Positions 929-47,420 of a DNA stretch of 47,420 nt are shown here, one piece after another. The first letter of the stretch is position 1, and each line of letters opens with the position of its first letter. Under the pieces are notes generated by a model. It was not told where the DNA came from. It worked only from the letters and a program-made list of their open reading frames with translations, and ran no database searches. The translations under genes and the position numbers were made by a program. This DNA is from a virus, in the IMG/VR virus record IMGVR_UViG_3300018067_000071, positions 1-47,420 of that record; one strand, given 5' to 3'.

Positions 929-2451
929 TGATTGACGTTGGCGCACTTCGTATGCGTTCTCTTACTGGTAGCTTCAATGATCTCAGTCCCAGTAGGAATA
1001 GAGATACATCAGATGTAGATAATAGGGGTAGCTTCAGACAGCCTGTTAAACAGAAGAAGACTACTTCTGTTTATGATCCCTATGATCCTAACCAACCAGA
1101 TAGTCCTCCGGAAGAACAGGCACCTACTCCTGGTCTAGCCAGAATAGCAGACCTATCAGTGGACCCTAATAAACGGCCAACTGTTGATGATGACATTAAT
1201 GCAACTAAAAGGTATATTGATGTAGTTCAGGGTAGTTACAAACCTGAAGTCCGGTCCAGAGATAGGAATGATAATCTACTGGATAACTTCCCTACACGCG
1301 GACAGCCCACTAAGATGGATAGGGCTGCTGCTATTCTCTTGTCTCTTGGTAAGCCTGACCCTGCTGAGACTACAGAGAAGGTACTTCAGCAGGACTACTA
1401 TCGTAACCTAGCTGATTGGAAGACGAAATCTGACCCTTACTACAAAGCTGCACAATTGGAGAATACTTCCAACACTAATGAACGTCAGGTGTTGGGTAAT
1501 GCACTTACTGGATTCAACTATAATCGGCGTACTCAGGCAACTGAAAGAGTTGGAGATCAGAGGTATGATCTTGGAGTAGAAGCTAATAGAATTAGGAAAT
1601 TCATAGCAGAAAATCCTAAGTATAAGTATGATTTTAGTGGTCCTAGAATTATTGCTACTAATGAAAATGATCCAGATGATTTCCACGTTCTTGGAGAAAC
1701 AGGTAAGCTAACTGAACGTGAGAAACTTATACTTCAGGGTCAGAATGCAGAGAGAGTAGCGCGTGTCCGAGCGACTGCAACTACTGATTCTGCTAGGATT
1801 CGAGCTAATGCAGCTCTAGCACGTGGTGGTAGTGGTTCAGCTTCACGAGCCACACCTAAACTAATGCAGGATGATGCTGGTCATCTCTATAAGTTTGATG
1901 GCAATGAACTTATTCCAATGGAAGACGATAGTCCTGATGAGCCAGAAGGTAACCTCTACACTATCACTGGTAAACCACGTGCGGTTGTAGATAAGCCTAT
2001 GTCTCCAGCAGGGGAGAAGACTGATTATCAGAATGATATGCGTCGTCTCTATGACACAGTATCTGAGGAAGATAGAAAGTTTATTCTCAAGAGTAACAAT
2101 GGTACGTACTATTTTGCAGATAGACCTAAGCCTAATCTGTTTAATGACAATGCTGCTGCCATTGCACGATATGATGCACTGAAAAAGAGAATTTATCCCG
2201 ACTATGATCCGTCTCACTTTGGAGCTGGTGCTACTCCAAATAATCCACCTCCTACTCCTACTGCTCCAACTCCAACTCCAACTCCACCTGTAGGACCTGT
2301 TAGACCTACTCCTACTCCACAGGGTGACGCGGGCTTGAGAGAGCGTGCGCGTCAATTCCTAGCTAGTAAGATTAATCCTAGAACTGGAAGACCTTATCCA
2401 GCTACAGAAGCCAACATTCAGCACGCTATTGCTAAGCGGTGGGTGCAGTGA
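928..2451 (+). CDS. Hypothetical virion-associated protein, Pro/Thr-rich tail
   Basis: A 507-aa protein starting at the ATG that overlaps the previous stop (TAATG), preceded by GAGGAGG with good spacing. The N-terminal part is polar and disordered-looking with many Asp, Pro and Asn. The middle is helical and charged. Near the C terminus (about residues 443-470) is a low-complexity Pro-Thr repeat, followed by a short helical end (RERARQFLASKINPRTGRP) that resembles a small helical binding tail. I recognise no family. Its place between two large virion-type genes and its composition suggest an internal virion or ejection protein. The function is inferred from context only. Confidence 0.75.
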   Translation: MIDVGALRMRSLTGSFNDLSPSRNRDTSDVDNRGSFRQPVKQKKTTSVYDPYDPNQPDSPPEEQAPTPGLARIADLSVDPNKRPTVDDDINATKRYIDVVQGSYKPEVRSRDRNDNLLDNFPTRGQPTKMDRAAAILLSLGKPDPAETTEKVLQQDYYRNLADWKTKSDPYYKAAQLENTSNTNERQVLGNALTGFNYNRRTQATERVGDQRYDLGVEANRIRKFIAENPKYKYDFSGPRIIATNENDPDDFHVLGETGKLTEREKLILQGQNAERVARVRATATTDSARIRANAALARGGSGSASRATPKLMQDDAGHLYKFDGNELIPMEDDSPDEPEGNLYTITGKPRAVVDKPMSPAGEKTDYQNDMRRLYDTVSEEDRKFILKSNNGTYYFADRPKPNLFNDNAAAIARYDALKKRIYPDYDPSHFGAGATPNNPPPTPTAPTPTPTPPVGPVRPTPTPQGDAGLRERARQFLASKINPRTGRPYPATEANIQHAIAKRWVQ

Positions 2452-2452
2452 T

Positions 2453-5400
2453 ATGGCAAACAGAACATATAATGCACTCTCGCCCCGTAATGCATATCAG
2501 CTGATTCAGTCTCAGCCTCCCATACAGGAAGAAGATCCGTATCTGAGGCAACCGAATCTGGATGAACTGCCTGATCAGGATGAGCCACAACAGCAGGCAG
2601 CTGAACCAGACCTGAGTGATCTACCAGATCAAGAAGATTATGGAGACATGCCCACATCTGGGTATAATCCTAATTACAGTGATCTGCCGTGGCTAAATCC
2701 AAAGAATACAGATCCATTCAAGCCTAAATCATATGATGCACTAGGTACTAATCTAGGTAATGAGGTACCTGAAACTCCTAGTCTCAGCGGGAGTATGTAT
2801 GGGGATTCCTCATTTAACTATCAAAATAAACCTAGTAGTTTTGAGGATATCCATTCAACTAACCCTGATGACTATGAACAGTCTGATGCGGGGTTCAGTC
2901 TCAAGACATTAAAGGACCAGTTTACATGGCCTAATGCTGCCAGAATGGGCATATCCACTGCCGGAGATATTGCCGGTGCAGCTACGGGTGGACTTCTATA
3001 CTATCCCATATCAGCTGCTGCTGGTGGACTTGGTGAGTTTACTGGTCAGGTAATGGAGGGCAAGAGTCCTTGGGATGTTAACTATGCAGCAGTAGGAACA
3101 GAAGCTCTCCTTAATCCTCTAACTATTGGTCCTAGTATCCCCAAGGCAGGACAAGGACTCAGGGGTGCAATTAAGTTCATCGGTGGTGCAGCTGAGGCCG
3201 GTGGTAAGAATGCACTAGTTGGAATTAACCCACGTAAATGGGCCAATGAGGGATTCTTTGATAACCAGGGTAAGTTTAACTACGCTGGACTAGATGAAAC
3301 TGCTGGTCAGGTAGGCGTAGGTACGCTGATGGGCGGAGCTACGGGCGCGTTGATGCATGGTGCTACTAGTGCATATCGTGCAGGTAGGGCAGGTCCTACT
3401 CCATTTGATGTAAATAATATGAAGGGTAAGTATACTGTTGATGAGACAGTTACCCCCAAGTGGCCTGATTTTGATCCTAATGCTGAGACTGTAACTCGTG
3501 AGACTCCACAGCTAAAGGCTGGTCCAGAACCAGTAGTTACACTCCAGCATCCTGATATGGCGTCCATTCAAGCATGGCGTGATCAGGGCTATGTAGCTGT
3601 AGATCGTAGTCCTGAGGGTTACTTCAGGATGGCGCGTGCTGATGTTGCAGATCAGTATATTGCTCCTATTCCTGATACTCCACCTACTGCTAATGAAGCT
3701 AGTTTCCAGTATACTGATCCTAACTTTAATCCGGGTGGAGCAGGTGATGCGGAGATGGCTGGTTCTAGTCCTTATGGGAAGGCACCAGACATTGAAGGAC
3801 AGGTACTACAGGGAGAGATTCTTCCACCTGAAGTAACTCCTGAGGCTCCTCCTGCAGTTGAACCTGTTCCTCCAGTTCAGCGAGTAGGGAATCAGACTGA
3901 AATAGATAGAAATGAGGATTGGACTAGATCACAGCGTAATCTATCTGTCTATGAGGGTAAAACTGATCCTGTAATCAAAGCATCGTATGACAAGATGCAA
4001 GAGGTGAGGAATGCTTATGCTGAATGGATTAGTCAACAGGAAGAACTACTTGGTCCGGGTGAAATCTTCACGCCTCCACCTGAAGTAAGAGAAGCCTATC
4101 TTGCTCAGATGGAGCAGATGGAAGATGCGCATCAGGCTGTAATCAATAGTAGAGGTGGATTTGAACAGGGTAGACCTCCTGATATTGAAGGAGAAGCATT
4201 ACCCAATCCATTTGGACTTCCGGTGTCTAGTGTAGGGGTAAATGTACCTACTCAGGCTCCAGTAACTCCAACTGTTCAGCTACCTCCAGGATTCACTCCG
4301 CCGCCTCCACAAGATCCTTTCATTCAGGATCTAAAGGCGCGTATGAAGTATCTGGATGGACGTAAAGTTCCAGATGAGAAGTATAAGCCTCTTGCACTGA
4401 AGATCTCTGCCGAACCACTGAAGAAGCGCGAGACGTGGCGTAGTAGGTTGGCTAAGGGTATTAGAGAAGCTGAAAAAGGACCGGGTAAGATTGAGAAGGG
4501 TGGACCGGGCTCAGCTGATGTAAGTAACACATATACTCAGCTTGAACGTATGCTAGGTCGTCCTCCAACTACGGAGGAAATAGATGCAGCTGCGGCTAGA
4601 CAGGCTGGTGTAGGAGATCAGACTGGACAGGTAGCTCAATTCCCTGAATCTCTGGGTCAGATGGCTCATAGACTGGTTCAGGAAGAAGCAGCTAATCCTG
4701 CTCCCTACTTTGCTCTTGATAGTACTCATGAATTTGCAGAGAGAGTAGGTAAGATACAGTCTATTCCAGAACTGGATAGATTAAGAGAGGAATTGAGGGC
4801 TGGTATAGAGGCTGCTAGACAGTCTGATATGCCTCCTGCAGCTAGAGTTGCATACTATGATTTGATGGGCATTCTTGACCGGAGGAGAGTTGTACTATCT
4901 CCTACTGGTCAATTGGATAGGACTCTATCTGATCTCAAGAAGACTCAGGATTGGACCAACCATATGGCAAGGGCTGGTAACATTCCAGTCCGTGTCCCTG
5001 GTCGTGAAGGTAACGTAGAGTGGCCGCCTAAGAGTGGTACTGTACAGCAGCCCACCTATCAGCCTACTGAGGTATACGAACAGCCCGGTCTACCATTTGG
5101 ACCTGTAGCAGCTAATCCTAACCCACCACCAATGGGTATTGGAGACATGCGTGCGCAGCAGGGCGTACAGAACATCACACCACCTGATCCTAACCAGGTT
5201 CCACTGCCACTAACTACTGATTATAACCATCCTAAAGAGGGTGGTCCAGGTAGTGCTGATATTAATAAGGCATTCTTGGAGTTTATTCAGAGAGAAGGAC
5301 GTGATCCTACTGATGATGAATTGGTGAATCTCACGTGGGGTGCTGAGCAGTCTCTCAATATGGCTCCACCTACACCTACTACATCTACTGGAATGATGGC

Positions 5401-8400
5401 AGGTCCGCAGATTGATCTGTCTAGCTATGGTCCTAAGGGACAAGAGTACATCCAGTGGTTGAAGGATACAGGAAGTCTCTGGAATCCCAATGAAATGGAT
5501 GTGGCTCAGAAGATTGAATTTGATGGATTTGTAAGGTCACTAGATTGGGAAGAAGATCCTAATCAGATGCCTGCTGTACGTCCACAGGATGTAGATAATG
5601 CAGTACGTGACACTACATTGTCTGACGCGCGTGTGATGGGTAATGGGGGATTGCCTCTAAATCCTACTGAGGAAAGAAATGTAGGTAGAACTGAACCTCT
5701 CCCACCAGAGGTACCTATTCCTCCGATTGCTAGGATAACTGCTAAAGTAACTGATATCAGTGCATTATCAGGTCTTGATAACATTCCTATCACTGATGAA
5801 ACTAAGGTTGTTATCCGAGCAACAATGGATAGGATCAATGAGACTAAAACTGTCGCTGAAACTAATGCGATGATGGATGATCTTGATAGACAAACAGAGA
5901 TAGCAATTGATGAAGGAGACAGAGATTCAGCAGAGATATATAGTGAACTAGCTCACTATGCAGCTCAGCGTGTAGTGAATATGTCTAGAGAGTCTATTGC
6001 TAGTCTGAATCTTGATCCGGATGTAGCAAGTCAAATAGACAATGATCAAGCAGTGATCTTCAGAGCATCTATGGACAAGGTAGATGCTGCTGATACTGTA
6101 GCAAAGGCTCAAGAAAACTATACTGACTTGCTTAGAATGGGAAATGGTCTTACTCAGACTCATCCCAGACTGGCTCATATAGCTAACAAACTAGCTAACT
6201 ATGCTGGCTATAAACTGACTCAGCTAGAGAAGGAAGCTGCTGAAGTAGGTCCTGAAACACCTATTGAATCAGCTGATATGCCTATTCCTGTTGAACCTAC
6301 ATTCCGTAGGTCTATCGCTAAGCCAGGTGAGCAGCAGGACTTGCCTGAGATGGGACTTCAGGAGAAGAAGCCCTATGATGTAGCTAAGGGTATCGAGGAA
6401 TGGGAAGATGCTCAGGAGACTCCAGGATTCCACAAGATACCAAGTAAAAAATTAGTAGATCCCGATACTGGGATGACCGAACGAGATCTGGTAGACCAGA
6501 GAAATATCATTAGGAATGCGCAGATGGATGCCGCGCATGGCATCACAGAGGGAGACTTTACTCCTGAATTCTTGGAGAAAGCTCCTCACTATAAAGACCA
6601 GTTCAAGCGAATTGTTGGATGGAATGCTGGAGCAGTTGACGTTGAACTAAAGGATGGCAGAGTCCTTATCACTGACCGTGGTAATGTAACTTCTCCTATC
6701 CCCAATAAAAAGAGTTGGACTAGCCATCCTGTAATGAATCCTGAGAGGTTCGATAAGAATGGTAAGTTTATTGGTAGTGCTAAACCTGAGCCTGACCTTG
6801 GTTCATTACCAGATCAGGAACCACTACCTCTCTCAACTGATCTGGAACATCCACCAGAACTAGAAGGTAAGAACTATGGACCGGGTGCTGCTATGCCTGG
6901 TGACATTAGTGGAAAGACTAATGATGAGATATGGATGGAGATGTTGGAGGAATTGGGACGGCCTCCAACTCAGGAGGAATATCTTGCATTCTTGAGGAAT
7001 GGACCTACACGCACGCCACCTCGTAATCTAGCTGAGAGGGCTGCTAGAAGGAAAGAAGTAGTTCAGAAACTTGACTTTACTTTTGAAGAAGCTAAGGGGT
7101 ATGGAGCTACTGATTTCATTCTACCCAATGGCAAACTACTAGCTCATGGTGATATCACACATAACCGTGGAGCTATGAGAGCAGGTACGTCACTAAATGA
7201 GGTATTGAATTCAGGTGTAGTTCGCTTCGCTAGTAATTCAGCGGAGACTAATGGACCTATTACTGGTGCTCAGGCTGCACACATAGCTCAGGCAGGAGCA
7301 GATCATCGTCATGAGCGCGCGTATGTAGATATCAATCTCCCCGGTGGAGATATTGTATCTCGTACATTCGTTGACAGAACTCTCAAAGGCTCAGCTATTC
7401 AGCAGTGGGTTAACTCACACTTCCCCAATGAGGGAATGAAGTCTGGTGAGCAGCAGATTCTACCGGGTGTACCACAGGGACACATTCCACCTGCTGATGT
7501 ACTTCGTTCAGATGTTGAAATATTTAAAGGAGCTGGACAACTACAGCTTCCATATGATCATCCTACTATTGCAAAATTCCGTGAAGGATTGAAGGAAACT
7601 AATAGTCCTTGGGATGCACACTTTGTACTTCCTGATGGAGTTGCATTAACTGGTGGTTCATTGAAGACACATCCAGAAATTGCAGCTAAACTAGGATTCA
7701 ATCATCAGGAAGTCCTTAAGGATGGACTGATGCGTGTTAGATATACTAGTGCTGAAATATCTTCACCAATATCAATAGCACAAGCTAGATACTTGATAGA
7801 TGCACGAAAAACAATGAAGAATAATCATATTAATGTAGATGTAAATCTTCCAGAACATGAAGTAGTAGGTAAGAGTTTTGATGCTAGAGCTAAGGCATCC
7901 ACTATCTATAACTGGGTTAAACAGCAGTTCAAGGATTTAGCAAAGGATGAGACTGGAGCTATGCCTGTTCCACAATGGGCACAGAACGCAGCTAACAAGG
8001 CTAAGAATAAGACTAGACAGTGGGGATGGGGACAGGGCAGAGTTAATGCCAATGCTCCACCACCAGGTCAGCCACAGCCTTATAGTAAGGTACATGAGGC
8101 TATGCAGGTACCTAAGAATGCAATGACTGCGGGTGATGCTTCCTTCCTAATGAGGCAAGGAGCAGGTGCAATACTATATAAGCCTTACTGGAAGGCTTTA
8201 AGTGAAATACCACAGTCAATGACTACAGCGGGTGCTGCTGCAATCCATGCGCGGAATGAGCAGAATCCTATCTATCAGCGTCCACTAAGTTCAACTAGAA
8301 CTCGTCAGCATCCTAATGGTGTACCTCTGCCATCTATTGCTGAGAAGATGGGCGTAGAACTGTATGATGATAACTCTGCTCCAGTAGGTAATCGTGCTCA

Positions 8401-9568
8401 GGCAGTAGCTAGTAAGTGGCTTGAGGAAGGTATTGGACAGGGTAGGGGATCTAAACTGTGGAGTAAGACTGCTGGAAAGTTCTATCGTATCTCCAATAGA
8501 ATGCACCGTACCTTCCTGAATACGGTGAAGACCGGACTAGCTCAGGACATGACTGACTATGCTGCAACTCTGGCAGATTCAGCTGCTAGACAGGCTAGTC
8601 AGAGTCCAACTGGTACTGCTAAGGTTAGACCAGGACTAATGAATAGAACAATGACTGCTCAGGAAGCTGCGGAACTACATCCGTGGTTGAATGATCAGCT
8701 AGCTAGGGAGATAGGAGACTGGGTTAATACTGCCACAGGATCGGCACCACTCAAGGCTCACATTCTTCCATTCGATCATAAGTATGCGCAGTTGGATCTA
8801 GAGGATTCAGCTGCTCTATTGAATAGGACTATGTTCGCATCAGGTCTAGCATTCAGCCGCCTGCGTATGACTAGTCCTGCCACGTATGTCATGGCTACCC
8901 CAATGGTACGCAAGCAGTATATGCGTAGCCTACTGGGTCATGCAGCCGCGTGGACTACGATGATAACTGCCACTAAGCTAGCTGCTGATGCACTTGGTAT
9001 TGACAATGAAATTAACTTTAATCCTACTAGTGCAGATTTTGGTAAGATTCGATTTGGTAAAGTACGTCTTGACCCTGGACAGGGTATGCTACAGTTCCTT
9101 GTGTTATACGGTAGACATCTTGCAGGTGGGCATACCACTGCTAGTAGTGATGAGTTCAAGAAGTTTGGTGAGGAGTACAGAGGTGAAACACACGGATCTA
9201 ACCTCCTACGATTCGGCTCAAACAAACTTGAACCTATCACGAAGTTTGCGTATGACTTCGCCTTTGCGGATAAGAACAACCCATTCCACGTAGGAGATCG
9301 TATAATCCAGTTAGCTGTTGCACTGTACATTCAAGATTTGTGGGAGTTGTCTAAGGAAGATCCTAAGTTGTTTGCACCGCTGGCTGGTGGGGCATTCATA
9401 GGAGGCGGTACTCAGATCTACGATAGGAATGAATCCAAGGCTAAGTTTATCCCTGAGGAGTATGACTATGTGTACAGGGGTGACAAGGGAATTCGTAATC
9501 TAATGCCTTGGAACTGGGGTGAACAGTCTGACGAGTATCAGGGTCCACCGAACTACAAGATCAAGTAG
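2453..9568 (+). CDS. Giant polyvalent-type virion protein (2371 aa)
   Basis: The largest gene. ATG 2453 is chosen over the upstream TTG at 2429 because it follows the previous stop by one base. Residues 1-60 carry repeated acidic LPDQE motifs, and residues 160-205 are a Gly/Ala-rich hydrophobic stretch. A GPGSAD-type module followed by a helix ending in LGRPPTxEE occurs three times (from about 683, 930 and 1476). A helical domain is duplicated (about 1113-1180 and 1195-1262), as is a domain with an F(I/V)LP(N/D)G core (about 1545-1680 and 1715-1845). The last ~370 residues, containing DFGKIRFGKVRLDPGQG near 2196, resemble what I know as large polyvalent protein-associated domain 38, common at the C terminus of giant phage proteins. 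Such proteins are thought to be packaged and delivered with the DNA. No catalytic motif is certain. The assignment to LPD38 is from memory. Confidence 0.85.
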   Translation: MANRTYNALSPRNAYQLIQSQPPIQEEDPYLRQPNLDELPDQDEPQQQAAEPDLSDLPDQEDYGDMPTSGYNPNYSDLPWLNPKNTDPFKPKSYDALGTNLGNEVPETPSLSGSMYGDSSFNYQNKPSSFEDIHSTNPDDYEQSDAGFSLKTLKDQFTWPNAARMGISTAGDIAGAATGGLLYYPISAAAGGLGEFTGQVMEGKSPWDVNYAAVGTEALLNPLTIGPSIPKAGQGLRGAIKFIGGAAEAGGKNALVGINPRKWANEGFFDNQGKFNYAGLDETAGQVGVGTLMGGATGALMHGATSAYRAGRAGPTPFDVNNMKGKYTVDETVTPKWPDFDPNAETVTRETPQLKAGPEPVVTLQHPDMASIQAWRDQGYVAVDRSPEGYFRMARADVADQYIAPIPDTPPTANEASFQYTDPNFNPGGAGDAEMAGSSPYGKAPDIEGQVLQGEILPPEVTPEAPPAVEPVPPVQRVGNQTEIDRNEDWTRSQRNLSVYEGKTDPVIKASYDKMQEVRNAYAEWISQQEELLGPGEIFTPPPEVREAYLAQMEQMEDAHQAVINSRGGFEQGRPPDIEGEALPNPFGLPVSSVGVNVPTQAPVTPTVQLPPGFTPPPPQDPFIQDLKARMKYLDGRKVPDEKYKPLALKISAEPLKKRETWRSRLAKGIREAEKGPGKIEKGGPGSADVSNTYTQLERMLGRPPTTEEIDAAAARQAGVGDQTGQVAQFPESLGQMAHRLVQEEAANPAPYFALDSTHEFAERVGKIQSIPELDRLREELRAGIEAARQSDMPPAARVAYYDLMGILDRRRVVLSPTGQLDRTLSDLKKTQDWTNHMARAGNIPVRVPGREGNVEWPPKSGTVQQPTYQPTEVYEQPGLPFGPVAANPNPPPMGIGDMRAQQGVQNITPPDPNQVPLPLTTDYNHPKEGGPGSADINKAFLEFIQREGRDPTDDELVNLTWGAEQSLNMAPPTPTTSTGMMAGPQIDLSSYGPKGQEYIQWLKDTGSLWNPNEMDVAQKIEFDGFVRSLDWEEDPNQMPAVRPQDVDNAVRDTTLSDARVMGNGGLPLNPTEERNVGRTEPLPPEVPIPPIARITAKVTDISALSGLDNIPITDETKVVIRATMDRINETKTVAETNAMMDDLDRQTEIAIDEGDRDSAEIYSELAHYAAQRVVNMSRESIASLNLDPDVASQIDNDQAVIFRASMDKVDAADTVAKAQENYTDLLRMGNGLTQTHPRLAHIANKLANYAGYKLTQLEKEAAEVGPETPIESADMPIPVEPTFRRSIAKPGEQQDLPEMGLQEKKPYDVAKGIEEWEDAQETPGFHKIPSKKLVDPDTGMTERDLVDQRNIIRNAQMDAAHGITEGDFTPEFLEKAPHYKDQFKRIVGWNAGAVDVELKDGRVLITDRGNVTSPIPNKKSWTSHPVMNPERFDKNGKFIGSAKPEPDLGSLPDQEPLPLSTDLEHPPELEGKNYGPGAAMPGDISGKTNDEIWMEMLEELGRPPTQEEYLAFLRNGPTRTPPRNLAERAARRKEVVQKLDFTFEEAKGYGATDFILPNGKLLAHGDITHNRGAMRAGTSLNEVLNSGVVRFASNSAETNGPITGAQAAHIAQAGADHRHERAYVDINLPGGDIVSRTFVDRTLKGSAIQQWVNSHFPNEGMKSGEQQILPGVPQGHIPPADVLRSDVEIFKGAGQLQLPYDHPTIAKFREGLKETNSPWDAHFVLPDGVALTGGSLKTHPEIAAKLGFNHQEVLKDGLMRVRYTSAEISSPISIAQARYLIDARKTMKNNHINVDVNLPEHEVVGKSFDARAKASTIYNWVKQQFKDLAKDETGAMPVPQWAQNAANKAKNKTRQWGWGQGRVNANAPPPGQPQPYSKVHEAMQVPKNAMTAGDASFLMRQGAGAILYKPYWKALSEIPQSMTTAGAAAIHARNEQNPIYQRPLSSTRTRQHPNGVPLPSIAEKMGVELYDDNSAPVGNRAQAVASKWLEEGIGQGRGSKLWSKTAGKFYRISNRMHRTFLNTVKTGLAQDMTDYAATLADSAARQASQSPTGTAKVRPGLMNRTMTAQEAAELHPWLNDQLAREIGDWVNTATGSAPLKAHILPFDHKYAQLDLEDSAALLNRTMFASGLAFSRLRMTSPATYVMATPMVRKQYMRSLLGHAAAWTTMITATKLAADALGIDNEINFNPTSADFGKIRFGKVRLDPGQGMLQFLVLYGRHLAGGHTTASSDEFKKFGEEYRGETHGSNLLRFGSNKLEPITKFAYDFAFADKNNPFHVGDRIIQLAVALYIQDLWELSKEDPKLFAPLAGGAFIGGGTQIYDRNESKAKFIPEEYDYVYRGDKGIRNLMPWNWGEQSDEYQGPPNYKIK

Positions 9569-11071: not shown

Positions 11072-13702
11072 CTAGAACGGGATATCTTCGTCCACTAGTT
11101 TACTACGTACTTCATCACGTTTCCGGAATATTTCATCCCTCACCATTTCATCATTCACAGTGAACTGCTCAGTTATAGTCAGCGGTCGTATCCTAACAGG
11201 CTCAGGAACTTCCATCTTAATCGTTTCCTTAAACTTGTATTTCGATAAGTCTTGGTAGTTCTCCCCAATCTCCACATCACATGGAATCTTAAGGAATCTA
11301 CGAGGGAGACTACACGCACTAAAGTTGAGCGCACGCTCCATCTCCTTCTTAGCTAGTGGTACGAAGTCATCTAGATATTCTCGTCTAAGAGCGAACAGAA
11401 GTGCATCGTGCGCCTCCAAAATAATTCGCGCATAGGGGCGCTGTTTTTTAATTCTGATACCAGCTGCCTTGGTATTGTCAGTAACAGCTCGCTGGGGGAT
11501 GTAGGAGAAAGCCTCACGGAACAGATCATCTCCCCACCGTTCGTAGAATATTCGAATACCACCTCTTTCGGCATCTATCCCCCAAGGTAAAGGTGCAACT
11601 AGTTGACGTGTTTCCTTAAGAGCTTCAATGATTCCCGCGTGGAAGACTTGCTGAATCTTGGGCTGCTTAGCGTGGAAGATCCTGAGTGCTCTATCGGCTT
11701 GTCCTTCATCAATTGTAATCGGGATCTTAAATTTTCTTGCTTGCGTGTTAAGTTCAACAGATGCTCGTCGCTTTCCAGCTCCAAGATGGCCCGCATGACG
11801 TAGAGTCTTCCCTGCAAATCGTATGGGAGACTCGTACCCCAGAACCTTCTTAGAATAGTCTTCTTCAGTACCGCCAAAGAACCACGAAGCCGTAAGAGCA
11901 TGGTAGTCATGTTCATCTATATCCCTCAATGCTTGATCATCTAGTGCTAGGTTGAATACTACTCTCGCCTCAGCTTGAGAACTATCCAGTTGCACAAGTA
12001 TTTCCTCTGGGCCAGGTCCATACATACTTCTCACATCCGCTCCAATATCACCATGCTTAGTCATGGTTTGGAACGCTGTGCCCATAGGCTTCATGTCTGC
12101 TTTTTTGCCCTTACCTACTGTATCTATCAGCGGGCGTGTAGGTGGGTCTTGCTGACCTGTACTAGTCCTACCAGTCTCTAGACACATGTACGTGGTAGTC
12201 TTCATCCGCCCATCATAGTCAGGTATGGCGAGCAGGTACGTAGAGACAGTCTTACGAACTCTGCGTCTCTCTAGACACTTCTCAATCCATGTCCTATGGT
12301 CTGGATTCTTTACTCCACTCTTGAGATTCAGTAGAGCAGTAAGCTCCTCCTCACCAACTCCATTACGGCGAGGTAAATGCCATATATCGAACAGCAACGA
12401 ATGAACAGCAGGAGGAGAGTTCGGATTGATATCGACTCCTGCAATCTCATGCATCTCAAAGCCAAGTCTCTCATCCCATTGGACATATTTCGTTATCAAC
12501 TCCTTTCTCTTGTCCTCGTCTACGTAGAATCCGTTCTGTTCGATTTCAGCATAGAAGTCAGGGAGAGTCATGATAAAGTTCTCATAGAACTTCCTCACTC
12601 CCAACTCATCTAAGTCCGCATCCATCGCCTCATCTATTTCGAGTGTAACACACGCATCTCGTGCGCACCCAAGAAGGAGATCTCTATAGGACCCTTCATA
12701 CATACCATCATCTTTGTAGAAGGGCTCTCTGGTGTAGATAGATGTAAGAAACGCGAGTCCCTTAGGCAACTCAGGATTAATTGCGAATGCCTTGAGCATC
12801 GTATCACTGTGGATGCGTCGTATTGTAAATCCAAGTCGTCTGATCTTGTCACGATCATAATTGAAATTCTGTCCGACAATGTCTTTCTCCATCAGAACCT
12901 TAGCTACCATAGTCCACATGGATGCTAGGTCGGAAGTTGGTATGTGACTAATACCATCTTTGTTCCACAGAGGAACAGTAATACCATGGTTCTTGTTGAA
13001 AGCCAGTCCAAGACATATAGGAAGACAGTGCCCACCAGCCTCGATATCAACCGATAGTCTGTTGCAATGCTTATATCGCTCAAGGAACTCATATAGCTCC
13101 CCACTGTGCTGGGCGATATGTAAAAGTCTACTCGGCAGTTGCAGGTCTCTAGTTTGAGATTCTTCATATGCGCGCTTGAAGTCGAAGATCATTATTTGGC
13201 GATTCCAGTAGCCTTTAATCTCACTCCCGGAAGCACTATGTAGTAGGTGCGCGGGGTGATAAGTAGGTACGAACTTAGTACCCATTCCCCAGCTAATGGA
13301 ACCACGATGCTTACTAATTTTATCCTTACCTGATAAAGCCCAAAGCGCCGTGCCACCAAGGGCCAGAATACAATTGGGCTTAATATCATTAATTTCAATT
13401 CGTAACTCCGCTAGTTGCTGTTCCATGTCAATACCCGCATTCCGCGCGCGTATGTGAAATGGTAGCTTCTTTCTGACTAGATTAGGTGGAACCTCATACT
13501 TACATACATTGGTAATCCAGCACTCACTACGCTGAATACCTGCGTCTTTCAGTAGTCTGTCTAGCTCTCTACCAGACGCACCAATGAACGGCTGACCCTT
13601 AGCCGTTTCTTCATAAGATGGGGCCTCACCTAGTATGAGTAGCTTAGGACCAATTGGACCCATACCAGGTACATACTTCTTATCTGCCATCTCTCGGTCC
13701 AT
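11072..13702 (-). CDS. Uracil-DNA glycosylase / family A DNA polymerase fusion
   Basis: An 876-aa fusion. Residues ~10-175 are a family 4/5-type uracil-DNA glycosylase with GEAPSYEE at 25-32, WITNVCKYEVPPN at 62-74 and HPAHLL at 149-154. The N-terminal cysteine pair of iron-sulphur UDGs is absent. Residues ~210-360 are a DnaQ-like 3'-5' exonuclease: D219/E221, NxxxD (N279-D283) and D349; the usual exo III Tyr appears to be Gly345. The remainder is a Pol I-type polymerase. Motif A is DSSQAEAR with D573. Motif B is in RFAGKTLRHAGHLGAG, where the usual Tyr is Leu. Motif C is HDA around D766 instead of HDE. The acidic metal ligands are kept, so it should be active as the replicative polymerase. 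The start could instead be ATG 13690. Neither start has a well-spaced ribosome site, and both overlap the previous gene. Confidence 0.92.
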   Translation of the reverse strand: MDREMADKKYVPGMGPIGPKLLILGEAPSYEETAKGQPFIGASGRELDRLLKDAGIQRSECWITNVCKYEVPPNLVRKKLPFHIRARNAGIDMEQQLAELRIEINDIKPNCILALGGTALWALSGKDKISKHRGSISWGMGTKFVPTYHPAHLLHSASGSEIKGYWNRQIMIFDFKRAYEESQTRDLQLPSRLLHIAQHSGELYEFLERYKHCNRLSVDIEAGGHCLPICLGLAFNKNHGITVPLWNKDGISHIPTSDLASMWTMVAKVLMEKDIVGQNFNYDRDKIRRLGFTIRRIHSDTMLKAFAINPELPKGLAFLTSIYTREPFYKDDGMYEGSYRDLLLGCARDACVTLEIDEAMDADLDELGVRKFYENFIMTLPDFYAEIEQNGFYVDEDKRKELITKYVQWDERLGFEMHEIAGVDINPNSPPAVHSLLFDIWHLPRRNGVGEEELTALLNLKSGVKNPDHRTWIEKCLERRRVRKTVSTYLLAIPDYDGRMKTTTYMCLETGRTSTGQQDPPTRPLIDTVGKGKKADMKPMGTAFQTMTKHGDIGADVRSMYGPGPEEILVQLDSSQAEARVVFNLALDDQALRDIDEHDYHALTASWFFGGTEEDYSKKVLGYESPIRFAGKTLRHAGHLGAGKRRASVELNTQARKFKIPITIDEGQADRALRIFHAKQPKIQQVFHAGIIEALKETRQLVAPLPWGIDAERGGIRIFYERWGDDLFREAFSYIPQRAVTDNTKAAGIRIKKQRPYARIILEAHDALLFALRREYLDDFVPLAKKEMERALNFSACSLPRRFLKIPCDVEIGENYQDLSKYKFKETIKMEVPEPVRIRPLTITEQFTVNDEMVRDEIFRKRDEVRSKLVDEDIPF

Positions 13703-14869: not shown

Positions 14870-15259
14870 CTAGCCACGCAGAGCGCGATACTTGTGGTTC
14901 ACGCGGTTGAGCATACGCCCATTCCACGTATCGTTCTCTACGAACACCTCGACCTGCTTACCAATAGCATTGGACAGCTCGAAGCGCGCACCAGACTTGA
15001 CATCCACACCAAGTGCGGCAAGGAAACCAGCAGCGAAACTGATAGCCTTGTTGTTGAACATCCAGTCCAGAGGAACACCCGCGAACTCCTCAGAACCATT
15101 GTCAGCATTCTTGACAATGACTCCCTCGACGGGGTAATTCGTGGAGTCACCAGCCTTGGACGGTGCTTCGCCCACGTTGTTGATGGTGACTACGTACCAT
15201 GCCGGCTCCACAATCTTACCGCGGAGAAGATCCTTCTCACTGAAACTGATGATAGGCAC
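14870..15259 (-). CDS. SSB-like phage protein (putative)
   Basis: A 129-aa protein. The GTG start at 15259 is supported by AGGAG six bases upstream. It begins ISFSEKDLLRGKIVEPAWY, has a Gly/Asn-rich beta-strand pattern through the first half, FNNKAISFAAGFLAALG in the middle and a basic end (NRVNHKYRALRG). This arrangement resembles the DUF669-type single-strand-binding proteins that accompany Sak4-like ATPases. The next gene upstream is such an ATPase, 9 bases away. No catalytic residues are seen. SSB function is inferred from pattern and neighbours. It could be an unrelated beta protein. Confidence 0.6.
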   Translation of the reverse strand: MPIISFSEKDLLRGKIVEPAWYVVTINNVGEAPSKAGDSTNYPVEGVIVKNADNGSEEFAGVPLDWMFNNKAISFAAGFLAALGVDVKSGARFELSNAIGKQVEVFVENDTWNGRMLNRVNHKYRALRG

Positions 15260-15268
15260 AACTAGCTC

Positions 15269-16081
15269 CTAGAATTTCTGTACTACGTTGTTGGTTGAGT
15301 TGAGTTTGGTGATGGCTGGTCGGATATAGGTGTCGTAGATTGGTTTATCTCCAAACACGATTTCCTTATCCAGTTCGAGTGCAGTTCTTGCGAAGTCATC
15401 ACCCGTGTGAGTGGTCAGTAGTGAGTAGTCACCTCCTTGTCCTTCAATGAATCCCTGCTTGATATTGAAGTGATAGACTTCACCACAATATGCGGGGATC
15501 TTAGCCGCCACGTTCTTGCCAGCCGTCACAATCTGACGACTAACATGCGTGGTCTTCTTAGTAGTGTCGCGGTACTCTGCCTTCACTACATGCGCAATGA
15601 GGACTACATTCACCTTATGGAAATTGTGAATGTCCTTCGTCAGTGCAATGAGTTCCTGAAGTGCGCTAGACTCAGCGTTGTAATCCTCAATCTCGTTGAC
15701 TGCAATACCTGCAACCAACTTACCAGCACTAGCTCCAGACCCCTTCGTCTTACCATACTTGATGCGCATAGTCTGACGCAGAGTCATATCCGCCATGCTA
15801 GTCAATGAATCAATGACGATGGTCTTATAGGGGCAGTTAACTTGCAGTTTCTCCAACTGCTTCTTGCCCGCTTCCCAGTCATCATAGTCATCATACGAGA
15901 TAGTCTTAGGGTCAATGCCCCACTTCTTCATGGGAAGGATGATACCATCCATCTTCCTATCCCATGAGAACCAATACTGTGGTCCAGGAAATGAGAGAGC
16001 CTGCGTAGACTTACGCAACCCCGGCTCACCCTTGAACATACAATACAGGTGGTCTACCTGTCTCTCGCCCATGTTAGGCAT
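15269..16081 (-). CDS. Sak4-like RecA-family ATPase (single-strand annealing)
   Basis: A 270-aa single-domain P-loop ATPase. Walker A is GEPGLRKST at 18-26, Walker B is IVIDS with D91, and VNVVLIAHV (about 154-162) is the RecA-type strand after the switch region. Its length and lack of extra domains fit the Sak4 (AAA_24) group of phage recombination ATPases, which work with a cognate SSB. Here an SSB-like gene follows and an exonuclease gene precedes, the expected cassette. The ATG at 16081 overlaps the previous stop (TAATG) with a GGAAG site. The likely role is recombination-dependent repair or replication of phage DNA. Confidence 0.8.
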   Translation of the reverse strand: MPNMGERQVDHLYCMFKGEPGLRKSTQALSFPGPQYWFSWDRKMDGIILPMKKWGIDPKTISYDDYDDWEAGKKQLEKLQVNCPYKTIVIDSLTSMADMTLRQTMRIKYGKTKGSGASAGKLVAGIAVNEIEDYNAESSALQELIALTKDIHNFHKVNVVLIAHVVKAEYRDTTKKTTHVSRQIVTAGKNVAAKIPAYCGEVYHFNIKQGFIEGQGGDYSLLTTHTGDDFARTALELDKEIVFGDKPIYDTYIRPAITKLNSTNNVVQKF

Positions 16082-16326
16082 TAGTGTATTTCTTCCTTCT
16101 TCTCAGGCTCGTCGAATGGAAGACTCAGCTGCTTTGGCTCACCATCATCTGCGATATCCTTCGCTTCACAGATAACAAAACCAACAGGCTCACCATCAAC
16201 AGCATCAACGATAGGAACGAGTTCCATCTCCTTATACTCGTCACCCTCTACGTCGATATATACTTCCTTGTCCAAGTCACCTACAGTGAGGTCATGCAGT
16301 TGCGCGAGTAGGACTCTGACTCTCAT
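16081..16326 (-). CDS. Small protein with sliding-clamp-binding motif
   Basis: An 81-aa acidic protein between the exonuclease and the Sak4-like gene, overlapping both (ATGA and TAATG). Near its C terminus, residues 66-71 read QLSLPF, which closely matches the beta-clamp-binding hexapeptide of bacterial replication proteins (Hda of E. coli has QLSLPL). The rest is a compact beta-type sequence (YIDVEGDEYKEMELVPIVDA) followed by a Glu/Lys tail. It could tether recombination or replication factors to the host clamp, or block the clamp. No other domain is recognised. Confidence 0.7.
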   Translation of the reverse strand: MRVRVLLAQLHDLTVGDLDKEVYIDVEGDEYKEMELVPIVDAVDGEPVGFVICEAKDIADDGEPKQLSLPFDEPEKKEEIH

Positions 16327-17288
16327 CCGTCTTCTCCCTTATTACGTGGGTCCCAAATTGGAGCCTGAACGTAATTCAGTTGCAATACTTCTTCCCGCAT
16401 AGCAGGGTCAGCCTCACATACCTGCTTATACGCGCATGGACCGTACATCGTATCGCAGTGCGTGTAATCAGGCGGCCAGTACCCAGACTCACTGTACTGA
16501 ACATACTTGTAAGCGTAGTATGGCAAGATTTCCTGTTGCCATTCCAACAGCCTAGCTGCACTGAAGCTCACTACTTCCCGCGTCAGTCTCTCATCAATCT
16601 TGAGTGTGGTCTGTAGACCAATCTTATTGACGATGACTCGACGTGCCTTCAGCAACAGAGCCTGTCCCAAGAACTGATTGGACAGTGTAGACTTATCTCG
16701 TCTCTGCTTGAACGTCTTGTGGTCCATTGACACGACACCAATCTCATTCGTATCAATGATGAGGTCGAACTTCGCCTTCCACAATACGCGAATCTCATCG
16801 TCCTCATACATCACCTCACCCTTTACATGCTCACATGAGAGAGGGACGAATGCGTCATTCTTGTAGAAGTCGAAATACTTCTCACACGTATCGAGCGCGA
16901 ATCTCCAGCCTACCTCGTACTTGACACTCTGTTCAGGAGTGTTAGTTACGCCAGGATACTCGTCGATATCATGTCCGCACGCAGGCTCAGGTTGTGTCTC
17001 AGACGCAATGAAACCTGCACACTTGGGACAGCCGAGCACAAACATCTGACCAGCAGTGAGTCCAGCACCAATAGACTCAACACGTCCAAATCCCTTAATC
17101 TGGTGCGCGTAGAATGTCTCCAACACCTTGTGGATGAGACTTCCTACTTCCAGACTATTAGATCTGCCCTTCTGACTTACTAGACGATGATTGAAGCGAA
17201 TGTCATGATAGCGGCCACAACTCATCAGACTACTGAGTAGTGTAGCGTCCATGATGACATTCTTCTTCGGTACTAGAATGTCCGTCAC
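16323..17288 (-). CDS. RecB/Cas4-like PD-(D/E)XK exonuclease with Fe-S cysteines
   Basis: A 321-aa nuclease. GTG 17288 is the start: GGAG lies six bases upstream and the codon overlaps the previous stop (GTGA). Nuclease residues in order are H53 in SLIHKV, D175 in AKFDLIID, D189-x-K191 in SMDHKT, and Q209 in the QxxxK/Y helix. Four cysteines, C24 and C278/C285/C291 (CDTMYGPCAYKQVC), are placed as in Cas4/AddB-type iron-sulphur nucleases. An extra CxxC...C insertion at 87-104 may bind zinc. It would resect phage DNA ends to feed the Sak4/SSB pair encoded just downstream. Confidence 0.85.
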   Translation of the reverse strand: MTDILVPKKNVIMDATLLSSLMSCGRYHDIRFNHRLVSQKGRSNSLEVGSLIHKVLETFYAHQIKGFGRVESIGAGLTAGQMFVLGCPKCAGFIASETQPEPACGHDIDEYPGVTNTPEQSVKYEVGWRFALDTCEKYFDFYKNDAFVPLSCEHVKGEVMYEDDEIRVLWKAKFDLIIDTNEIGVVSMDHKTFKQRRDKSTLSNQFLGQALLLKARRVIVNKIGLQTTLKIDERLTREVVSFSAARLLEWQQEILPYYAYKYVQYSESGYWPPDYTHCDTMYGPCAYKQVCEADPAMREEVLQLNYVQAPIWDPRNKGEDG

Positions 17289-18976: not shown

Positions 18977-21094
18977 CTACTTAGCAGCGAGAATCTTGCG
19001 ATTCTTCTTAGCATTGTGAGCATTCACGATAGTCTGGCCAAGCTCCTTCATCAGACTATCCTCATTCCACTTAACAGCCTCGCCCTTATTCATGGCGTTG
19101 TGGAACTGGATTCTCTTACGCTCCACGATGTTATCGAACTGCGCATCAATAGCAGTGATACCATCAAGGTTCGCGTATACTGCGTTCACGCTTGTAGCAG
19201 TAGAACCAATGCGAATGAAACGTCCCTCGCACTGCTCCTCTTTAGCAGGATTCCACTGACGCTCGTGCATGATACAATCGCAGCACGTCTGGAGATTCAA
19301 GCCCTCACCACCAGCCAGCTCACTAGCCACCATGATAACTTGTGGTAGAGCATTGAACTTCGTCTGTGCTTCATGCTTTGCAGCGTCATTCATACCCGCT
19401 ACAAACTGCATGACAGGGAACTTATCGCCGTACTTCTCCTTCAACTCCGTGTAGAGAATATCCTGCACATCCTTGTGATGCGCGAACACTACCAGCTTGC
19501 GGCCAGTATTCTCTACGAACTCATCCACGTATTCCTTCGTGGTCTCAATCTTGGCCAGACCAGCGAGGTGACGCATCTTACTCATCTGAGCAAGTATGTG
19601 CATCCCACTAATCTCCTCTTTCTGGTCCTCAAACCACTGTACGAACTTCTCTACAGCCTCATCGTACATAGCCTCGTCCTGCTCACTCATGACGACGTTG
19701 AGCTTAGTACGATTGACTAGTGGCAGCTCAGGGAGTACCTCAGCACGTTCACGACGGATGCAGATATCCTTCGTGTACTCCTTGAAACGCTCGATATTCT
19801 TGATGCCACCCTCTTTAGAGTAGCCACCCTGAAATTCATAGCGTACCCACGTCTGCTTGAATCTCTCAGGCGAGGGAAACTTCATGGGCGCCATCATATT
19901 CAGAACTGGGAACAACTCACTACCACGATTGTTCCAAGGCGTACCAGACAGGGCAATCACTTTCCTGTCCTTAACTACCTTACGGACCATCTGAGTACGT
20001 GAGCTATCCACGTTCTTAATCTGCTGGCATTCATCCAACACTACGCACTTGATACCGATTCTATCAAACTCGGTGATATCAAAACCTGACGTAACAGTCT
20101 TACCAGACTTCAACGTGCGCGTCTTGCTCACCAGCATATCGTAGCTGACGATATAGTGTCGGATTCCCTTACCAGTGGCGGGGTTGTAGGCAGGCCACAA
20201 CTTATCCTTCGACGTCTCAATTACCTGTGGAACATGCTCAGGTCCAAGCCAATTGACTAGGAATGCGCACGTCTGATACTTGAGAGCGGACTTAACCATC
20301 CACAGACATGGCTGGAGCAGTTCAGGGTGGAAGTATACGATACCACCAGCCTGAATAGTCTTACCCAGACCCATCTCATCGAATACTGCTGCGCCCTTGT
20401 TGGAGTACAGACCAGCTTCAAGGAACTCCATTCCCTCTAGCTGGAACTGATATGGACGCTTCCTGTTGCAGAGGACACAATTATTCTTGTCCCACTCATG
20501 CTTGCAATCAGGATTACCACCCATCTGGAATAGGTGGAAAGGTGTACCCTTTGGAACCATACGGACAACCATATGTCCGCATTCCAATGTGATGAGTTTG
20601 GTATCTGGCTTGTGCTCGTCAGGATTCTTGAGTAGAACCTCTTTGACAGAGACAGCCACCTTACCACACATAGGGCACTTGTCCTGAAGACGAGTCACCT
20701 TATAGCGTGGAGTACGGATTACCTGCTCATCGAATGTCACTTCAACATCAGCGCCACCACGAATGGCGTCAATAATCTCAGGTGACAGTGAGAGATTGGA
20801 GCATGGCTGCGTATTATCACAACCAACTTCACGCGCCTTATCAGCCCACACATAATCGTGTGCATGGCCCGGTCCCACTAGCGCGTGTGCAATCTCATGA
20901 CGGATAGTATTGATAACATCCGGGTCAGGATGAATATCAATATGGTGAGCGGACAAGATAATGCACTTGTCCTTGTATGAGCATAGGCCGAGGAATCTAG
21001 AATCAGCATTCTGATTCAACCTCACAGCCCAATCCTGTAGACCATGCTTATTCAGCTCGTCTCTCAGGATTTGTGTAGCCTGTCGTCTATCCAT
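18977..21094 (-). CDS. SprT-like metalloprotease / SNF2 helicase fusion
   Basis: A 705-aa fusion; ATG 21094 has AAGGA seven bases upstream. Residues 1-100 are SprT-like: HEIAH at 66-70 (two zinc histidines and the catalytic Glu), with H77/H79 as possible third ligand. Residues 140-209 hold cysteine pairs C140xxC143, C172 and C197/C206xxC209, fitting zinc ribbons. From ~215 on is an SF2 helicase of SNF2 type: Walker A GLGKT at 242-246, DECQ at 354-357, SGTP at 383-386, and ending with GLNLQTCCDC and QCEGRFIRIGST (motifs V and VI). SprT/Spartan proteases digest DNA-bound proteins and SNF2 motors remodel or translocate on DNA. A single chain with both could clear protein blocks or host proteins from phage DNA. 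The activities are inferred from intact motifs. Confidence 0.9.
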   Translation of the reverse strand: MDRRQATQILRDELNKHGLQDWAVRLNQNADSRFLGLCSYKDKCIILSAHHIDIHPDPDVINTIRHEIAHALVGPGHAHDYVWADKAREVGCDNTQPCSNLSLSPEIIDAIRGGADVEVTFDEQVIRTPRYKVTRLQDKCPMCGKVAVSVKEVLLKNPDEHKPDTKLITLECGHMVVRMVPKGTPFHLFQMGGNPDCKHEWDKNNCVLCNRKRPYQFQLEGMEFLEAGLYSNKGAAVFDEMGLGKTIQAGGIVYFHPELLQPCLWMVKSALKYQTCAFLVNWLGPEHVPQVIETSKDKLWPAYNPATGKGIRHYIVSYDMLVSKTRTLKSGKTVTSGFDITEFDRIGIKCVVLDECQQIKNVDSSRTQMVRKVVKDRKVIALSGTPWNNRGSELFPVLNMMAPMKFPSPERFKQTWVRYEFQGGYSKEGGIKNIERFKEYTKDICIRRERAEVLPELPLVNRTKLNVVMSEQDEAMYDEAVEKFVQWFEDQKEEISGMHILAQMSKMRHLAGLAKIETTKEYVDEFVENTGRKLVVFAHHKDVQDILYTELKEKYGDKFPVMQFVAGMNDAAKHEAQTKFNALPQVIMVASELAGGEGLNLQTCCDCIMHERQWNPAKEEQCEGRFIRIGSTATSVNAVYANLDGITAIDAQFDNIVERKRIQFHNAMNKGEAVKWNEDSLMKELGQTIVNAHNAKKNRKILAAK

Positions 21095-21130: not shown

Positions 21131-21823
21131 CTACTCAGCAGCAGGAGGATTGAACGCAGAGGATAGCAGCTTACCAGCAGTGTCCACGTCCATGTTACGC
21201 AGTTCACACATGGACTTCAGTGTGGACATTGCAACATCATACTTGATAGCTGCAATCTTCAAATCCTGCATCTTGATAACTACCTTGGGCGCCTTGTTAG
21301 ACTGTACAGACGGTGGAGTCTTACCCTTGATAGCCTTCTTAGTGACAGCAGGAGGCGCGTATGTGATGTTAAACTTGCTGTACTTCTCACGCTCCTCAGC
21401 ACGCAGCTTGGAGATGAAATCTACAGTAGCCTTGCGCCATCCTTCTCGCTCATTCTCCTTAGCAATCTTCTGCTCATTGAGATTGAAGATTACATCAGTG
21501 AAACCAGCGATACGGTCCTTGACGAGGTTTACCAGAACCTCATTCTTCTTCTCAGCAGGAATATTCTCATCATGCTGAATAGCAGTGTACAGCTCACCGA
21601 ATGACATGGTGGCTGCATTGAAGATATCAGCCTTGAGCTGAATAGCCTTATCCTGCTTGAATGAGGTTTCGATAACCTTATTCACAGTCTTGCTGGACTC
21701 AATAGCAGCCAGCTCAGCCTGATAGCACTTGATGCAGTATCCATCCTTGCTAGGCGGAATCTGAAACAAGTCCGTATCTGTAGCAGGACAGAAATCACAT
21801 TCACCTACTGCGAATGGCTTCAT
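21131..21823 (-). CDS. Zinc-ribbon plus coiled-coil protein (230 aa)
   Basis: ATG 21823 overlaps the previous stop (TAATG). An N-terminal zinc ribbon (C9xxC12, C30xxC33) is followed by a long charged helical region (about 40-150, likely coiled coil), a Pro/Lys linker (TKKAIKGKTPPSVQSNKAP) and a C-terminal helix pair. It precedes the SprT-SNF2 gene by 36 bases. The layout suggests a DNA- or protein-binding adaptor. No family recognised. Confidence 0.75.
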   Translation of the reverse strand: MKPFAVGECDFCPATDTDLFQIPPSKDGYCIKCYQAELAAIESSKTVNKVIETSFKQDKAIQLKADIFNAATMSFGELYTAIQHDENIPAEKKNEVLVNLVKDRIAGFTDVIFNLNEQKIAKENEREGWRKATVDFISKLRAEEREKYSKFNITYAPPAVTKKAIKGKTPPSVQSNKAPKVVIKMQDLKIAAIKYDVAMSTLKSMCELRNMDVDTAGKLLSSAFNPPAAE

Positions 21824-44115: not shown

Positions 44116-44427
44116 ATGGCTAGAGGAGCTATTACAAGCGAAGGATCAAGCGGGGAGAACATCCATCACTTCTCTACTATTAGACTACGTGCAACTGGTC
44201 AGGGTAAGCTAAGTATGGTAGTTCATTCAATGGATCTTGTGAGATCCAAACAACTAGCGATGATGCAATTGGAAGGCAAAACTCGAATCCAACCTAATAG
44301 AATTGTAAATTTCGTTGAACAGCGTGCATGTTTTGAATTCCAGCTTACTGATATAGATGAGTACTTTAGAATCAATAGAATTATCGTATTCATGAAGGAA
44401 ATTTACACGTCTCATCCGGGTGCATAA
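44116..44427 (+). CDS. Small tail-associated protein (103 aa)
   Basis: AGGTGA six bases before ATG 44116; stop overlaps the start of the fibre gene (TAATG). A compact alpha/beta protein (FSTIRLRATGQGKLSMVVHS; FRINRIIVFMKEIY). It may link the tail protein to the fibre, being encoded between them. Unrecognised. Confidence 0.65.
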   Translation: MARGAITSEGSSGENIHHFSTIRLRATGQGKLSMVVHSMDLVRSKQLAMMQLEGKTRIQPNRIVNFVEQRACFEFQLTDIDEYFRINRIIVFMKEIYTSHPGA

Positions 44428-47198: not shown

Positions 47199-47420
47199 AT
47201 GGGTGGGAACAAGAATAAAACCAAGGAAGCATCTGGTAGCGACCCTCGTGGAACTAACCAGAATCAGATTAATCAGCAGGTAGAAGCCTATCAGAGTCAG
47301 CAGCGACCACTGGCTGAGGAGATGGGGTATAACTACGCACGTGGAGCTGAGGCTAACTACGGCGATTATACTGACATCATGAATCAGTATCGTGGTATAG
47401 CCTCTGGTGCAGGTGGAGCA
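47199..47420 (+). CDS. Virion-associated protein, N-terminal part (continues at 1..928)
   Basis: ATG 47199 with GAGG five bases upstream. Seventy-four codons run to the window edge, beginning MGGNKNKTKEASGSDPRGTN, followed by a Gln-rich helix and ending in glycines. After collapsing the shared 10-base end the frame continues from base 11. The Gly-rich junction and the Ala/Gln composition match the piece at 1..928, so this is one gene split by the choice of linearisation point. Confidence 0.75.
   Translation, partial: MGGNKNKTKEASGSDPRGTNQNQINQQVEAYQSQQRPLAEEMGYNYARGAEANYGDYTDIMNQYRGIASGAGGA

Follow-up and report, generated by a model that had tools for sequence, protein, structure and literature searches.

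A SprT-like metalloprotease domain and an SNF2 motor joined in one predicted protein of uncultured phages

A single open reading frame in a viral record from IMG/VR (IMGVR_UViG_3300018067_000071, 47,420 nucleotides, analysed over its whole length and here called the window) joins a SprT-like metalloprotease domain, two zinc ribbons and an SNF2 motor in 705 amino acids. The fusion is stable across a group of uncultured phages and could act as one machine that frees phage DNA of tightly stuck proteins. The single-chain combination is apparently undescribed, and each half is known in phages.

Domain architecture of the fused protein

The gene lies on the minus strand, with its ATG at 21094 behind an AAGGA-like ribosome site, and runs for 705 codons to a stop at 18977. 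A SprT-like part (residues 1-112) is followed by the zinc ribbons (132-212) and an SNF2/Helicase_C motor (213-650):

18977-21094, minus strand: whole gene, SprT, zinc ribbons and SNF2, 705 aa (translation, Pfam, about 90 fused relatives)
20759-21094, minus strand: SprT-like metalloprotease domain, residues 1-112 (Pfam, PHROG, AlphaFold2 and Foldseek)
20885-20899, minus strand: HEIAH active-site motif, residues 66-70, with H66, E67 and H70 (identical in 94/94)
20858-20860, minus strand: H79, probable third zinc ligand (94/94; same place in stand-alone phage SprT), W83 being likewise invariant
20702-20758, minus strand: linker, residues 113-131 (mean majority residue 79%; low pLDDT when the N-terminal part is modelled alone)
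20573-20677, minus strand: zinc ribbon 1, C140, C143, C172 and H174 (94/94; present in SprT-less homologues too)
20468-20506, minus strand: zinc ribbon 2, C197, H199, C206 and C209 (93/93 where aligned; in most SprT-less homologues)
19574-20458, minus strand: SNF2 ATPase N-lobe, residues 213-507
20357-20380, minus strand: Walker A, DEMGLGKT, residues 239-246 (G242, G244 and K245 in 94/94)
20024-20035, minus strand: Walker B, DECQ, residues 354-357 (D354 and E355 in 93/93 where aligned)
19205-19534, minus strand: helicase C-terminal lobe, residues 521-630, with GGEGLNLQ (595-602) and GRFIRIG (624-630)

Pfam matched the SprT-like family (PF10263) to residues 15-93 at 33.7 bits (cut-off 25.6), SNF2-rel_dom (PF00176) to residues 218-507 (E 1.8e-25) and Helicase_C (PF00271) to residues 521-630 (E 7e-11), the last two also above their cut-offs. 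Among the PHROGs, families of stand-alone phage SprT (PHROG 1006, E 1.8e-25) matched residues 1-100, and the phage 'DNA helicase' family 62 matched residues 212-693 (E 7e-78). Among solved structures, the motor is closest in sequence to 1z63, an archaeal-type Snf2/Rad54 helicase entry. The chain carries the Walker A and B motifs, the motif III and the motif VI arginines by which SNF2 family ATPases are recognized, its motif II reading DECQ rather than DEAH; K245, D354, E355, R625 and R628 are invariant wherever they align.

These results bear out the initial annotation, which had reported, without naming a strand, an intact HEIAH and a set of SNF2 helicase motifs in one 705-aa chain. It had also placed zinc cysteines at the N terminus; the cysteines exist, but at residues 140-209, between protease and motor. 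We rejected a chance HExxH motif: a random sequence of the same composition would be expected to contain HExxH with a spaced third histidine only ~0.007 times, and the motif is invariant in the 94 aligned members.

The N-terminal domain is modelled as a SprT-type fold

We modelled the N-terminal part with AlphaFold2 from a 93-row alignment that included stand-alone phage SprT proteins. Residues 1-90 were confident (block pLDDT 89-97) and the linker was looser. Foldseek searches of the PDB with this model returned selecase (E 1e-3), Spartan (6mdx, E 1.8e-3) and Wss1 (E 0.05), at probabilities of 0.99-1.00, as well as projannalysin, which is the set to be expected of a minigluzincin; the named top matches among viral models were mostly SprT-like phage proteins. 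A profile search of PDB sequences likewise recovered Spartan 6mdx (E 2.2e-5). By the model, the N-terminal part is a minigluzincin of the SprT/selecase type, and profile and structure together dispose of the initial annotation's reservation that the domain might fold unlike SprT.

A whole-chain AlphaFold2 model built from 12 alignment rows was poor (pLDDT 56) and was discarded. The linker (20702-20758, minus strand) is conserved as strongly as the catalytic domain, yet it was modelled with low confidence; residues 113-131 are thus a candidate contact that may dock on the motor.

The fusion is conserved in about 90 relatives

We scanned IMG/VR twice, with the protein and then with a family profile, which gave 11 and then 80 loci, and enlarged the set by searching again with diverged members and the N-terminal portion. 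After removal of duplicates, ~90 distinct complete frames combined SprT, zinc ribbons and SNF2, counting the window's own copy. Across a 94-member fused alignment, H66, E67, H70, H79, W83, the ligands of ribbon 1, G242, G244 and K245 were identical in 94/94, and the ligands of ribbon 2 together with D354 and E355 in all 93 fused members that align there. The mean majority residue was highest among the major domains for SprT (0.76), followed by the SNF2 lobes (0.70) and the ribbons (0.64). Pairwise dN/dS for SprT was ~0.04-0.10 where calculable, a rough value because dS is saturated. As judged from these comparisons, all parts of the fused protein are under purifying selection.

The initial annotation had named a misassembly not seen in relatives as a possible undoing of its reading; an assembly or frameshift artefact was considered here. 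In one relative (L109:3660-5746), SprT and SNF2 do lie in two frames that overlap, the result of a deletion at the junction that represents either loss in progress or a sequencing error. Against this stand the ~90 distinct fused frames, from other IMG/VR contigs, each a single open frame with the conserved linker, and we consider the chance of an artefact negligible.

Another fused relative (L413:2962-6126) contains an apparent intein (~328 aa, with a LAGLIDADG endonuclease domain) that interrupts the SNF2 motor precisely at Walker A (MGLGK, then the insert ending in THN, then T). We had considered this locus as a second kind of fusion and rejected it as the same family plus an intein. That an intein sits at this motif suggests functional importance of the motor.

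Both halves are known in phages, and the single chain is apparently new

The initial annotation had described a counter-defence or repair function of this kind as one seldom assigned to phages. Stand-alone SprT-like proteases are in fact common there: 962 annotated phage records have a SprT-like match, many named 'SprT-like protease'. SNF2 helicases are also common in phages. The fusion itself was absent from annotated phages and plasmids, where tblastn gave no match over 80% of the query. Two scans of bacterial genome contigs gave no fused relative, the second yielding only distant motor matches, and 199 genomes of one phylum contained SprT-like genes, one HsdR-YgjP-like frame (L419, described below) and no SprT-SNF2 fusion (the two longest frames were read). 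In the literature, within partial coverage, a single-chain SprT-SNF2 fusion was not found; one paper names SprT, SNF2 and phage, but treats them separately. Since both halves are known in phages and the fusion was not found elsewhere, the apparent novelty lies in the single-chain fusion.

The protease domain appears to have been gained once and lost repeatedly

Close homologues without SprT (L010, L094, L097, L101, L128 and L162) begin just ahead of ribbon 1 and share the locus of the fused forms, following the 230-aa neighbour gene there as well. No other SprT match was found in the contigs of these phages, one of which is near full length (44.6 kb) and the others fragments. Two further candidates, L154 and L111, were dropped as their contigs end inside the gene. 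The two ribbons come after the SprT domain, as the zinc-binding subdomain of Spartan would, but they remain in the SprT-less homologues (L010 having lost ribbon 2) and hence belong to the motor half.

We followed the history of the motor in two quick maximum-likelihood trees. All SprT-bearing forms fell into one clade with support 100, and the outgroups of this clade, including the zinc-ribbon motors L275, L276 and L278, are without SprT. The SprT label required seven changes on the motor tree, and the same number when only the strongly supported branches of the second tree were used. Most simply, the trees suggest one gain of SprT and then about six losses while the motor stayed. Because the motor was kept at the locus while SprT was lost repeatedly, the protease appears to be an optional accessory to a core motor of recombination, and some phages of the group can do without this protease. 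Repeated loss points to a conditional role, compatible with repair or counter-defence.

That SprT-less forms still have the zinc-ribbon motor would also fit a SprT domain that steers the motor by binding DNA or junctions, without proteolysis. A precedent is ArdC, which couples a Spartan-like zincin to a single-strand DNA-binding domain and counters HsdRMS restriction; its protease activity is not needed, and its Spartan-like domain is dispensable for antirestriction (PMC7213743). However, H66, E67, H70 and H79 are invariant in the fused proteins (94/94), and metal binding alone does not require the catalytic glutamate. We therefore regard a purely binding role as very unlikely.

The locus is a replication-recombination cluster

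The genes around the fusion include:

21131-21823, minus strand: conserved upstream neighbour, 230 aa, with a Cys-rich start, upstream of fused and SprT-less forms alike
16323-17288, minus strand: Cas4-like PD-(D/E)XK exonuclease (PF12705, PHROG 1218; synteny)
15269-16081, minus strand: Sak4-like recombinase ATPase (PHROG 124, PF13479; synteny)
14870-15259, minus strand: probable single-strand-binding protein, by position only (no family match; syntenic)
11072-13702, minus strand: uracil-DNA glycosylase (UDG) joined N-terminally to a family A DNA polymerase (PolA) (PF03167, PF00476)

As far as each locus reaches, fused and SprT-less forms share the gene order 230-aa gene, (SprT-)SNF2, Cas4-type nuclease, Sak4, probable SSB, cold-shock protein and UDG-PolA. 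By gene content, the SprT-SNF2 locus is a replication-recombination cluster, and the Cas4, Sak4 and PolA setting favours a job in replication and recombination. The UDG-PolA fusion (11072-13702) adjoins the cluster; UDG generates abasic sites, from which DNA-protein crosslinks are known to arise (PMC7782752).

Elsewhere in the window, a frame of 2379 aa (2429-9568, plus strand) has no Pfam match, and a frame at 44427-46454 (plus strand) with collagen-like repeats encodes a probable tail fibre protein. Positions 1-10 and 47411-47420 carry the identical ten bases AGGTGGAGCA, and the genome in this record may be almost closed. Scanning the window for Rfam families and tRNAs gave no match, nor did a near-identity search of its first 24 kb against the phage collection, and the only relatives of TerL and PolA are distant and isolated.

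The setting also bears on counter-defence, in which the motor would travel on incoming or replicating phage DNA and SprT would destroy host defence complexes loaded there, such as restriction translocases or defence nucleases. The patchy loss of SprT among close relatives is the pattern of an arms-race module, and ArdC shows a mobile-element protein with a Spartan-like zincin and a single-strand DNA-binding domain countering HsdRMS, albeit by an antirestriction that does without protease activity (PMC7213743). But the gene stands among replication-recombination genes rather than small accessory genes, no defence target or anti-defence neighbour was seen, and the similarity to the bacterial defence SNF2 proteins ZorD, DpdE and DrmD is confined to the motor and falls far short of the NCBIfam cut-offs. 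Counter-defence is accordingly an unlikely reading.

Host take-over, in which the targets of the protease would be host proteins of the nucleoid, of replication or of division and the motor would only bring it to DNA, draws on stand-alone relatives. LHTSCC gp83, a stand-alone phage SprT whose gene we located, is bactericidal on expression in M. smegmatis and makes the cells filamentous (PMC7474061); host-protein targets have also been suggested for SprT copies of jumbo phages (PMC7824862). Here, in contrast, SprT is joined to a conserved motor within a recombination cluster, whereas the stand-alone copies examined lie apart from any SNF2 gene, and we rate host take-over as distinctly unlikely. 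The toxicity of gp83 does indicate that the SprT family can be harmful when unconfined.

A proposed role in clearing proteins from phage DNA

The reading that we place highest, at about even confidence, is of a phage SNF2-type recombination motor with an acquired N-terminal SprT, the tethered protease cutting stuck proteins on phage DNA. The SNF2 part would bind and track along double-stranded phage DNA or recombination intermediates, with the ribbons and the conserved linker coupling motor to protease. On meeting a crosslinked or very tightly bound protein, the tethered SprT would cut it and let strand exchange and synthesis by PolA continue; the tie to the motor would also confine a potentially toxic protease to DNA. 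An intact protease site and ATPase, two ribbons, purifying selection and the fixed place beside Cas4, Sak4, SSB and PolA are consistent with this proposal, as read from sequence and model. By analogy, ArdC suggests that a zincin beside a DNA-binding domain can work without proteolysis (PMC7213743), and gp83 co-precipitated mostly ribosomal proteins, with unclear specificity, which does not point to DNA (PMC7474061); the inferred repeated loss likewise weighs against a general need for the protease.

A stronger form is more tentative. In a predicted single-chain motor protease, ATP-driven SNF2 translocation would push or partly unfold the stuck protein and pass it on to the tethered SprT site, so that one phage protein would do the job of FANCJ or p97 plus SPRTN.

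Clearance of proteins from DNA is little known in bacteria and phages compared with eukaryotes, where the protease and the unfolding helicase are separate proteins. The natural fusion and its close SprT-less sisters at the same locus present the same motor with and without protease, a ready test. SprT-SNF2 is also a compact candidate tool for removing DNA-protein crosslinks, and it offers a testable context for hundreds of stand-alone phage SprT genes without an assigned role.

Comparison with known systems

Stand-alone phage SprT proteins (PHROG 1006; Mycobacterium phage LHTSCC gp83 and Koreni gp80) have the same catalytic domain, the nearest annotated copies sharing ~50% identity over ~98 aa and the same HExxH, third histidine and tryptophan. 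They differ in length (~150-280 aa, without a motor, against 705 aa with one), in a post-domain tail unlike the two ribbons and in having no adjoining SNF2 gene in the loci examined. The phage SNF2 'DNA helicases' of replication modules (PHROG 62) resemble the motor over residues 212-693, and close SprT-less homologues occupy the same locus, but the helicases of this family are without the SprT domain.

ArdC of plasmid R388 is likewise a mobile-element protein with a Spartan-like zincin joined to a DNA-binding part; unlike the fused protein, it has no motor, its third metal ligand is Glu rather than His, and its protease is C-terminal rather than N-terminal (PMC7213743). A frame in an Acidobacteriota genome (L419:2647-5124, minus strand) combines an HsdR translocase with a C-terminal YgjP/SprT-like metallopeptidase, the domains being named by eye. 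It resembles the fusion in that one frame encodes an SF2 DNA translocase as well as a SprT-like metallopeptidase, and differs in its type I restriction motor, reversed domain order and place on a bacterial chromosome.

Human SPRTN and yeast Wss1 share the minigluzincin fold and active site of the SprT domain, and are DNA-activated proteases without sequence specificity that act on DNA-bound protein (PMC7782752). Neither has an SNF2 motor in its chain, whereas the C-terminal part of the fused protein is a motor; unfolding falls to separate partners such as the helicase FANCJ, which unfolds the adduct, probably before SPRTN degrades it (PMC10175854). By this analogy, SPRTN and FANCJ would divide between two eukaryotic proteins the same two jobs that the phage protein may hold in one.
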